A stretch of 64,000 bases of DNA from Chloroflexota bacterium (GTDB taxonomy: Bacteria; Chloroflexota; Anaerolineae; Aggregatilineales; Phototrophicaceae): contig JAPOXG010000095.1 in NCBI GenBank assembly GCA_026707225.1, positions 62,001 through 126,000 on the forward strand. Reading direction: 5' to 3'. Within the stretch, counting starts at the first letter, position 1; each line of letters starts with the position of its first letter. Position numbers and translations under genes: made by a program. A model generated the notes under the pieces. The model saw only the letters and a list, made by a program, of their open reading frames with translations, was not told where the DNA came from and searched no databases. Positions 21,566-24,506 of this stretch are shown piece after piece.

Positions 21566-21592
21566 TTGCCAATGTCGGTTTTTTTGTATAAT
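21566..21592 (+). promoter_or_regulatory. Predicted promoter of the structured RNA / recX-rny leader
   Basis: TTGCCA at 21566-21571 (five of six consensus bases) and a perfect TATAAT at 21587-21592 with a spacer of 15 bases, slightly short of the usual 17. Transcription would start near 21599, right where the run of stem-loops begins. Confidence 0.45.
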
Positions 21593-21598
21593 AGGAAG

Positions 21599-22015
21599 TG
21601 TCCGGTAGATGACATTCTTGTCATTGCCGTCGCTTGAGCAAGCAAAACCTAGACCACCGACTCGAGTCGCGGCTCACAGATGGAAGCAGCTGTGACGAGA
21701 AGAGGTGGCGAAATGCAATGCGAATTTGGCGAATAACGAGAGATAACGTACTCCGCTGAATTTGCGGCTGCGGATTACACCGCGCAAATGGCGAGCGATC
21801 AAATGGCTCGCCGCAGGATTGGATCAGATTGACATGGACTTTCATTTCGAAAGTTCAACAGTGAATATACTGACGCGCTATGCCGTAGCGCTTGGGAAGA
21901 GACTACGGGGCGTTTCGAACTGATTCTATTGGCGTTGTTACTGTCACCTTGGTGATTTGACGCATTCTGCAATTTGTCGCTGGTGAGGCCGCAGCTTCAG
22001 CGGAACTGCGGCTAT
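21599..22015 (+). ncRNA. Candidate structured non-coding RNA or long leader ahead of recX
   Basis: The 415 bases between the TATAAT box and recX hold no plausible ORF but many exact short-loop stems: ATGACA/TGTCAT (21609-21624), GCTT/AAGC (21632-21643), the palindrome CGACTCGAGTCG (21658-21669), TCACAG/CTGTGA (21674-21695), GCGG/CCGC (21770-21783), GGCGAGC/GCTCGCC (21790-21812), GGACTTTC/GAAAGTTC with one G-U (21836-21856), GCGCTA/TAGCGC (21875-21891), TCAC/GTGA (21944-21955) and GCCGCAG/CTGCGGC (21988-22012), the last followed by TATTTGTATT like a weak terminator. About one exact 6-bp stem with a loop of 3-12 would be expected by chance in this length; five or six are present. No match to tmRNA, RNase P, 6S or SRP RNA signatures was found by eye. 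Strand is taken from the promoter and the T-rich end. Confidence 0.5.
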
Positions 22016-22033
22016 TTGTATTGGACGAGTGCA

Positions 22034-22687
22034 ATGCCTGTCGTCACTGGCATGGAAGTTCATCAGCGCGATAAGGAAAGAGTAAGACTCTTCCTTGATG
22101 ATGAATATGTCCTGGACCTGCCCCTGATGGAGGCCGCTCGCCTCAGCAGAGGGCAGACGCTGACGGATTCAGAAGTGGACCAGTTGGCCGACGCTCGGCG
22201 TCTCCAGCGCGCTTATGATCTGGCTCTGCGCTATCTGTCCTATCGACCACGCAGTACTGAAGAAGTTCGCCGTCATCTCGCCAAGAAGCAGTTACCGGAT
22301 TCTCGAATCGCCGAGGTGCTTGAGCGATTGCGGCAGCGTGGCTATGTTGACGACATGGAATTCGCGCGCTTCTGGATAAGCAGTCGCGTTCGATTCAAGC
22401 CAATGGGTTTGCGCGCGCTGAAATATGAGCTGCGTCAGAAGGGCGTCGATGACGAAATCGTCGAGGCCTTGCTGGCGGAAGTCGATGAGGAGGCATCGGC
22501 AATTCGCGCTGCGCAAACGCGGATGTCGCGGTATCGGGGCAGTTCTCCTCAAGCGTTCCGGCACAAGCTGAGCGCGATGCTCCGCCGCCGCGGTTTCGGC
22601 GAATACACAATCAGGGATGTCGTTCTGCGCTTGCAGTTGGAGCTTGAGGAGCGCGATCCTGGCTACTTTCAAGACGATGCGGACTAG
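22034..22687 (+). CDS. recX: Regulatory protein RecX
   Basis: A 217-residue RecX-family protein built of three-helix repeats: LQRAYDLALRYLSYRPRSTEEVRRHLAKK, then IAEVLERLRQRGYVDDMEFARFWISSR, then MGLRALKYELRQKGVDDEIVEALL and a fourth AFRHKLSAMLRRRGFGEYTIRDVV. RecX binds RecA filaments and inhibits recombinase activity. An N-terminal portion (VVTGMEVHQRDKERVRLFLDDEYVLDLPL) is the small beta domain found in many RecX proteins outside Proteobacteria. Start taken at the ATG 22034 with a weak GGACGAG upstream; an ATG at 22052 is possible. recA is not adjacent. rny follows after 75 bases. Confidence 0.9.
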   Translation: MPVVTGMEVHQRDKERVRLFLDDEYVLDLPLMEAARLSRGQTLTDSEVDQLADARRLQRAYDLALRYLSYRPRSTEEVRRHLAKKQLPDSRIAEVLERLRQRGYVDDMEFARFWISSRVRFKPMGLRALKYELRQKGVDDEIVEALLAEVDEEASAIRAAQTRMSRYRGSSPQAFRHKLSAMLRRRGFGEYTIRDVVLRLQLELEERDPGYFQDDAD

Positions 22688-22733: not shown

Positions 22734-22871
22734 ATGTATCCAATGGATACCGTCAAGCCACTATGGAAATCCAAGATCTTACAACAGTCGTACTCGCAGT
22801 TGTCGTCGCCATCGTTGGGATTATCGCGGGTTATGTCGTCGGCGGCCGCCGGAGTGTGGGCGCGCTGCTGA
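22734..22871 (+). other. Out-of-frame short ORF with strong ribosome binding site overlapping the rny start
   Basis: AAAGGAG at 22719-22725 stands eight bases before an ATG at 22734 that opens a 45-codon frame (MYPMDTVKPLWKSKILQQSY and on) running through the first 36 codons of rny in another register. It could be a leader peptide that brings ribosomes to the rny ATG by reinitiation, or the signal may belong to rny with a base miscalled between 22734 and 22763. The peptide itself shows no recognisable feature. Confidence 0.35.
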
Positions 22872-24334
22872 AAAAGCAGCAGGACGAAGGACAGAGCGCG
22901 CTGCTCGAAGCGTCGGAAGACGCGAAACAGATTCTTGACAATGCCGAAGCGGAAAAGGCCGCGATACTCGCCAATGCCGATAGCGATGCGCAGCGCCGCG
23001 TCAGCGAGGCGGAAACGAAAATCTCGCGCCGCCGCCGCGATCTAAGCGACGAAGACGAACGCATACAGCGCCGGCGCAAAGATCTCGACAATCGGATGGA
23101 ACGTCTCGAGCAGCGCGATCAGCAGTTGAACAAGCGCCAAAGCCGCCTGGATAGAAAGGAAAACGACCTCAAGAAGTCCGAAGCCATTATGGTCGAGAGG
23201 CTCGAGGTCATCGCCCAAATGACGATCGATGAAGCGCGTCAGCAGCTGCTGGATTCGATCGAACTGGATGCGCGCAACGATATGGCGCGGATTATCCGGC
23301 AGGTCGAAGCGGAAGCGCGTGAAACCGCCGATCAACGGGCGCGCAGCCTCATCGCCATGGCTATACAGCGTCTGGCTTCCGAGCAAGTGAACGAGATCTC
23401 AGTCAGTGTGGTTCATCTGCCCAGCGACGACATGAAAGGCCGCATCATCGGCCGCAACGGGCGCAATATCCGCTCATTTGAATTGGCGACCGGCGTCGAT
23501 GTCGTGGTGGACGACTCGCCGGAGTCGGTCACCATCAGCAGTTTCGATCCAGTGCGCCGAGAAGTGGCGAAGCGGACCATGGCGAAACTGGTGGTCGACG
23601 GGCGCATTCATCCAGCGCGGATAGAAAAACTGGTCGAAGATACGCGGGCGGAAGTGGAACAGATCGTTCGCGAAGAGGGCGAGCGAGCCGCTTACGAGAC
23701 CGGGATCCATGGCCTGCACACGGAAGTGCTGAAGCTATTGGGCCAATTGAAATTCCGCACCAGCTACGGACAGAATCAGCATGCCCATGCCATTGAGACG
23801 GCGCATATCGCCGGCATGATAGCGATGGAGTTGGGCGCCGATGTCAACATCGCCAAAGCCGGCGGTCTGCTGCATGACATCGGCAAGGCGATTGACCACA
23901 GCGTCGAAGGCACGCACGCGCTGATCGGCGCCGAGTTCGTCAAGCGCTATGGCGGCAAAGACGCGGTCGTGAATTGTGTCGCCGCCCATCATCACGAAGT
24001 GGAGAAAGAGTGCGTCGAAGCCTTCATCGTCGAGGCGGCTGACGCTATATCCGGCGCGCGCCCCGGCGCCCGGCGCGAAAGCCTCGATTCGTACATCCGC
24101 CGCGTCAAGCAGTTGGAGGAAATCGCCAACACCTTCGACGGCGTCGACCAGAGCTACGCGCTGCAGGCTGGGCGCGAGGTGCGCATCATCGTGCGGCCGG
24201 AGGTGGTCGATGACTACGCCTCGATTCAACTGGCGCGCGATATCGCCAAGCGGATCGAGAACGATATGCAGTACCCGGGACAGATTAAGGTGCACGTCAT
24301 CCGCGAGACGCGGCGGGTGGAGTACGCGAAGTAG
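22763..24334 (+). CDS. rny: Ribonuclease Y
   Basis: A 523-residue membrane-bound endoribonuclease that initiates mRNA decay. Order of domains: N-terminal transmembrane helix (residues 7-27), a long charged coiled coil (about 30-190), a KH RNA-binding domain (213-280, GRIIGRNGRNI at 226-236) and an HD phosphohydrolase domain (HAIETAH at 342-348, His-Asp at 371-372, HHH at 409-411). All catalytic residues are present. The ATG at 22763 has no ribosome binding site. An excellent AAAGGAG serves instead an ATG at 22734 in a different frame, which stays open to 22871 and overlaps the start of rny. Confidence 0.95.
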   Translation: MEIQDLTTVVLAVVVAIVGIIAGYVVGGRRSVGALLKKQQDEGQSALLEASEDAKQILDNAEAEKAAILANADSDAQRRVSEAETKISRRRRDLSDEDERIQRRRKDLDNRMERLEQRDQQLNKRQSRLDRKENDLKKSEAIMVERLEVIAQMTIDEARQQLLDSIELDARNDMARIIRQVEAEARETADQRARSLIAMAIQRLASEQVNEISVSVVHLPSDDMKGRIIGRNGRNIRSFELATGVDVVVDDSPESVTISSFDPVRREVAKRTMAKLVVDGRIHPARIEKLVEDTRAEVEQIVREEGERAAYETGIHGLHTEVLKLLGQLKFRTSYGQNQHAHAIETAHIAGMIAMELGADVNIAKAGGLLHDIGKAIDHSVEGTHALIGAEFVKRYGGKDAVVNCVAAHHHEVEKECVEAFIVEAADAISGARPGARRESLDSYIRRVKQLEEIANTFDGVDQSYALQAGREVRIIVRPEVVDDYASIQLARDIAKRIENDMQYPGQIKVHVIRETRRVEYAK

Positions 24335-24449: not shown

Positions 24450-24479
24450 AAACAAAAAACCCCTGCCATCTGACAGGGG
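24450..24479 (-). terminator. Rho-independent terminator of the PDZ-protein gene
   Basis: CCCCTG at 24460-24465 pairs with CAGGGG at 24474-24479 around an eight-base loop. Read on the minus strand the stem is followed by TTTTTTGTTTTG. It starts 28 bases after the stop of the four-PDZ protein, in the correct orientation. Between rny and this element (24335-24449) I see only a small hairpin GTACA/TGTAC near 24371. Confidence 0.85.
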
Positions 24480-24506
24480 CTTCTGAATCTTCCAGCTATC
24501 AGCGGC

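Follow-up and report, generated by a model that had tools for sequence, protein, structure and literature searches.

The pbuE adenine riboswitch of Bacillus subtilis has the layout of an ON-type transcriptional riboswitch, and in Escherichia coli a leader precedes rne, the gene for the main decay endonuclease. Read-through of the recA-recX terminator accounts for about 10% of recX transcription in E. coli (PMC3542578). B. subtilis RNase Y autoregulates by cutting its own mRNA in the 5' UTR and the first part of the rny coding region (PMC10303841). Larger structured RNAs also occur in bacteria, among them OLE, GOLLD and ROOL, which are large and ornate (PMC12286853).

RecX is a central factor in recombination control, as RNase Y is in RNA decay. 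The literature searched contained neither an account of an element such as the one reported here nor a description of the regulation of recX or rny in Chloroflexota. Judging from sequence comparison, this element probably acts as an on/off switch of the recX-rny operon, one so far undescribed that recurs across the Chloroflexota class Anaerolineae.

Results

The window, that is, the whole stretch of 64,000 nucleotides that was analysed, lies on contig 47 of a 4.3-Mb Chloroflexota genome (G000) whose named relatives are Chloroflexi/Anaerolineae MAGs. An earlier note, made from the letters of the window, had proposed a hairpin-rich non-coding RNA upstream of recX-rny, between a TTGCCA-15-TATAAT promoter and a weak terminator-like hairpin. 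The promoter is present at 21566-21592 and the ORF-free stretch behind it is real, but the end of the element had been placed about 14 nt too early, as it reaches the recX start codon. Transcription of the leader is predicted to start near 21599. The features of the locus are as follows.

21566-21592, + strand: promoter, with TTGCCA at 21566-21571, a 15-nt spacer and TATAAT at 21587-21592 (from the sequence)
21599-22033, + strand: whole leader RNA, structured, about 435 nt, 5' end predicted (fold z = -5.34; covariation in 29 and 11 sequences)
22021-22025, + strand: TTGGA, weak Shine-Dalgarno-like site for recX (genus alignment)
22034-22687, + strand: recX, 217 aa (Pfam RecX domains PF02631, PF21982 and PF21981)
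22763-24334, + strand: rny, RNase Y, 523 aa (PF12072, PF00013 and PF01966; RNase_Y_N, KH and HD)

A little way 3' of rny, AAAACCCCTGCCATCTGACAGGGGCTTCT at 24454-24480 resembles a terminator of the recX-rny operon.

Relatives were mostly located through recX; a DNA search of 34 genus genomes, together with a family-wide search for RecX, yielded 30 genus loci. These share conserved blocks at near-constant spacing, a leader that ends at the recX ribosome-binding region and the RecX N-terminus MP[VI][VI]T, and a -10 box (GTATAATA/GTATACTA) sits 417-450 nt 5' of the recX ATG in 30/30. The GG(A) of the Shine-Dalgarno-like site is kept 8-13 nt 5' of the ATG in the genus alignment. Four extra members of the genus match the leader either full-length (two) or partly (two), with TATAAT 429-451 nt upstream in 4/4. 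The next gene after recX is rny in 40 of the 41 loci with flanking DNA, and the exception stops at a contig edge.

The relatives hold no conserved reading frame across the leader, which agrees with the non-coding character first ascribed to it. In the length of their stop-free stretches the genus leaders do not surpass shuffles; a single one, L046, does so, and its neighbours do not. A protein-coding origin was ruled out on the ground that open frames are not in excess over shuffles. Between 21594 and 22020 there are six exact stems (at least six Watson-Crick pairs, loops of 3-12 nt). Across 300 dinucleotide shuffles the number of such stems averaged 1.0 and always stayed below six, which agrees with the initial estimate of at least five stems against about one by chance. 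The MFE z-score of the leader is -5.34 (-4.65 for a slightly different stretch). The local stems that were stressed initially do exist; the most informative feature, however, is a long-range helix, P1, which closes a domain of about 230 nt. The proposed structure comprises 11 helices and 77 pairs, listed here, along with the terminator-like hairpin, with the share of alignment cells that are paired.

21604-21628, + strand: H1 hairpin, 21604-21613 with 21620-21628 (8/9 pairs doubly changed, 65% of cells paired, 29 sequences)
21654-21708, + strand: H2, 21654-21658 with 21704-21708, and H3, 21666-21673 with 21689-21696 (86% and 72% of cells paired, 29 sequences)
21720-21765, + strand: H4, 21720-21729 with 21756-21765 (89% of cells paired, 8/10 pairs doubly changed, 29 sequences)
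21767-21793, + strand: P1 5' strand, the putative antiterminator strand, with P1a 21767-21773, P1b 21778-21781 and P1c 21784-21793 (84-86% of cells paired)
21835-21857, + strand: H5 hairpin, 21835-21844 with 21848-21857 (paired cells: 72% across 29 sequences, 94% among the 11 closest)
21859-21922, + strand: H7, 21859-21862 with 21919-21922, H6a, 21875-21879 with 21909-21913, and H6b, 21883-21888 with 21903-21908 (paired cells: 62-80% across 29 sequences, 92-96% among the 11 closest)
21968-21995, + strand: P1 3' strand, with P1c 21968-21977, P1b 21982-21985 and P1a 21989-21995 (shares bases with the 5' arm of the hairpin in the next row)
21988-22022, + strand: terminator-like hairpin with its arms at 21988-21994 and 22006-22012, followed by the T-rich tract TATTTGTATT at 22013-22022 (79% of cells paired, 29 sequences)

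The identity of the genus leaders to the window drops from about 82% to about 60%, a range suited to a covariation test, and covariation was counted on alignments. Across 29 sequences, 77.5% of cells were paired, compared with 37-45% when the partners were slid, and both sides had changed in 189 cells compared with 90 in shuffles. Among the 11 closest sequences, 92.6% of cells were paired against 35-46% with slid partners; because the structure was derived from these same 11 sequences, the slid control flatters it, and the double changes in the other 18 are the better evidence. The pairs of P1 covary within the genus, and 4/4 pairs of P1b show double changes (29 sequences). Compensatory changes in relatives, which had been named at the outset as a check on the stems, were thus found with both 29 and 11 sequences, and they support a structured non-coding RNA 5' of recX-rny.

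The 3' end of this RNA can fold in two ways. The 3' strand of P1a (21989-21995) shares bases with an arm of the terminator-like hairpin (21988-21994), and because the P1 3' strand is the 5' arm of the hairpin, the two are mutually exclusive. In the window leader they are predicted to lie 1.1 kcal/mol apart with P1 favoured, and the P1a pair tested has a predicted pairing probability of 0.91; at some other folded loci the prediction favours the terminator over P1. The leader thus has, as expected of an attenuator, mutually exclusive alternative pairings, one of which is a hairpin before recX. This hairpin, originally described as weak and terminator-like, stands at 21988-22012 with TATTTGTATT behind it. 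The terminator scan does not list it, owing to its weakness; its covariation within the genus is not above that of shuffles (29 sequences), and the T-tract is degenerate in the window's genus and lost in several of its subgroups. Its position corresponds to that of strong terminators in other genera and families. A second upstream strand, GTCGCGGCT (21666-21674, in H3; GGCTGCGGCTAA in L030), can likewise pair with the hairpin arm; the H3 strand scored best in some relatives, and a three-way competition is possible.

A strong covarying fold with its own promoter and a terminator-like 3' end would also suit a stand-alone RNA of about 0.4 kb acting in trans, in which P1 would be the 5'-3' closing helix and recX-rny would be reached by read-through. 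The terminator of the lineages L092, L093 and L095, which does not adjoin recX but stands 70-110 nt upstream, points the same way. We nevertheless consider such an RNA unlikely: the element is single-copy, it is always 5' of recX in the relatives examined (mostly found via recX), its spacing to the recX start is near-constant within the genus, and a stand-alone RNA does not need a closing helix that overlaps a terminator arm. The earlier note had left the choice between a stand-alone RNA and a leader open; the near-constant spacing and the two-state 3' end speak less for the former, and the leader is favoured because it abuts the recX ribosome-binding region and its 3' end folds as either P1 or the terminator-like hairpin.

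A scan of Rfam 15, which had been suggested with the original proposal, gave no family match above gathering and no credible weak match at the leader, which is thus absent from Rfam; nor was a second copy found in the genome. As first claimed, the element is not RNase P RNA, tmRNA or 6S RNA, all of which were located elsewhere in the genome (RF00010 at C47:144424-144783, RF00023 at C47:30479-30868 and RF00013 at C119:94994-95170, respectively). A T-box leader was also rejected, as RF00230 matches neither the window nor, in relatives, the element. A different Chloroflexi MAG gives a T-box leader-like match of 75.5 bits (gathering score 93) at L097:7305-7566, 3' of its recX-rny.

The nucleotide profile of the genus element reaches no other genera, so that position and topology, rather than sequence, are the basis for kinship beyond the genus. 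In many other genera within the family the hairpin is a strong terminator (for example, CAGCCGTGGTTTCATTCATTGAATCACGGCTGTTTGTTTT) that lies shortly 5' of recX. A hairpin with a T-rich tract lies at most 150 nt from recX in 58/61 loci of other Anaerolineae families, as it does in 32/36 loci from other genera within the own family. Complementarity between an upstream strand and the 5' arm of this hairpin was scored against dinucleotide shuffles; the combined Fisher p was 5e-12 for the class loci (0.60 for the reversed-arm control) and 8e-8 for other genera of the own family (0.10 for the control), values that kinship among loci renders optimistic. Individually, 17/58 class loci had p < 0.05, compared with 4/58 for the reversed arm, and the individual hits were drawn from about a dozen families. 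These figures come from the third of three terminator finders. The first, which chose non-terminator hairpins at some loci, gave the same direction, and the second, which was too strict and retained 24 loci, gave combined p values of 2e-5 and 4e-4 (controls 0.26 and 0.32).

Single loci and genera add to this picture. In L160, GATCATAGCT replaces the usual CCACAGCT in all three strands, the same deviation in each being as expected of an antiterminator-terminator set. One genus of the family (six sequences) carries an upstream ACCACGGTTG that is complementary to the terminator 5' arm, and a 5' hairpin there could mask the antiterminator-like strand. As to promoters, a genus of the family other than the window's (L117, L118, L122, L123, L125 and L131) shares a distinctive GTTGTG...TGTGCATAATA about 310-330 nt before recX; it is also present in a second genus group (L113-L137) and differs from the TTGCCA/TATAAT of the window.

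Among the spacers of 23 families no conserved sequence core was found except CCACAGC, an antiterminator core present in 5/23 families compared with 0.6 in shuffles (maximum 3). With no core shared across families, a classical riboswitch with one conserved small-molecule pocket is unlikely at the level of the class; an aptamer may exist at the level of the genus, given the conserved blocks there.

Some loci, such as L116, L192 and L203, have a near-perfect long-range helix of 14-20 bp. Together with the position of rny after recX and the autoregulation of B. subtilis rny (PMC10303841), this would fit a feedback leader, in which RNase Y, or else a nuclease specific for double strands (RNase III, for example) acting on the long helix, would cut the leader and thereby set the stability of the recX-rny mRNA. 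By that analogy such feedback is conceivable, and we regard it as quite improbable here, for it requires neither an upstream strand that mimics the terminator 3' arm nor a T-tract.

The gene upstream differs between groups. recA lies directly 5' of the recX spacer in 45/61 class loci outside the own family, whereas the own-family loci have no recA match upstream, and recA of the window's genome is on another contig. In L091:2029-4125 the recA match is split into two parts that are separated by about 880 bases and whose query ranges (22-289 and 217-356) overlap, which suggests an insertion or intein-like element in the recA of this MAG. Twenty loci from other classes of the phylum showed no comparable leader; short recA-recX spacers exist there, a few of them with a small terminator, and at loci with a recA match the distance from its end to recX is 56-365 nt. 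Such an arrangement, the frequent presence of recA upstream and the approximately 10% read-through in E. coli (PMC3542578) would all be compatible with a constitutive recA-recX terminator with fixed partial read-through, the structure upstream of it being incidental or a relic. This is the least probable of the readings weighed here: it leaves the complementary upstream strand and hundreds of covarying nucleotides unexplained, and the structure has been retained at loci that recA has left and that possess a promoter.

Discussion

The explanation that we favour, and consider reasonably likely on the strength of the alignments and predicted folds, is that the element is a cis-acting 5' leader of recX-rny that acts by transcription attenuation and has an ON-switch layout. 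When P1 is formed, the hairpin would be blocked and transcription would proceed into recX-rny; when P1 is unformed or opened, the hairpin would form and transcription would stop or drop. Some signal would shift the balance between the two. In the window's genus, with its degenerate T-tract, the leader may still terminate transcription at this point, or the element may have turned into another kind of leader.

A parsimonious history would start from an ancestral Anaerolineae order of recA, attenuator spacer, recX and rny, with recA gone from the locus in the own family, where a promoter is present. More tentatively, and as a possibility that we rate below an even chance, the loci may form a class-wide Anaerolineae family of large RNA switches that originally occupied the recA-recX spacer and that would couple RecX and RNase Y expression to a signal, the switching topology having been kept while the sensing domain was rewritten between families. 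The leader is present in every genus relative examined and echoed across the class, and it points to an RNA family absent from Rfam 15. It provides a concrete, testable hypothesis, namely, that DNA repair and mRNA decay are controlled together.

OLE, GOLLD and ROOL (PMC12286853) resemble the leader in their length of several hundred nucleotides and their dense structure; the leader differs in having no Rfam match, in being found only before recX and in a sequence that is unconserved across families. The B. subtilis rny 5' UTR and the E. coli rne leader are similar in that the operon encodes the main decay endonuclease, but the present leader abuts recX rather than rny, and its predicted mechanism is attenuation. 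As at E. coli recA-recX, a terminator structure stands directly 5' of recX, and outside the own family most Anaerolineae loci also have recA upstream; the differences are a spacer that is long and structured and contains a strand able to pair with the terminator arm and, in the own family, a locus without a recA match and an element with its own promoter. Compared with the pbuE-type ON riboswitch, the leader has a much larger domain, no known ligand, a weak T-tract in the window's genus, no sequence core across families and no Rfam match. In both, however, the terminator takes its 5' arm from the 3' strand of P1, such that folding of the domain would prevent termination.
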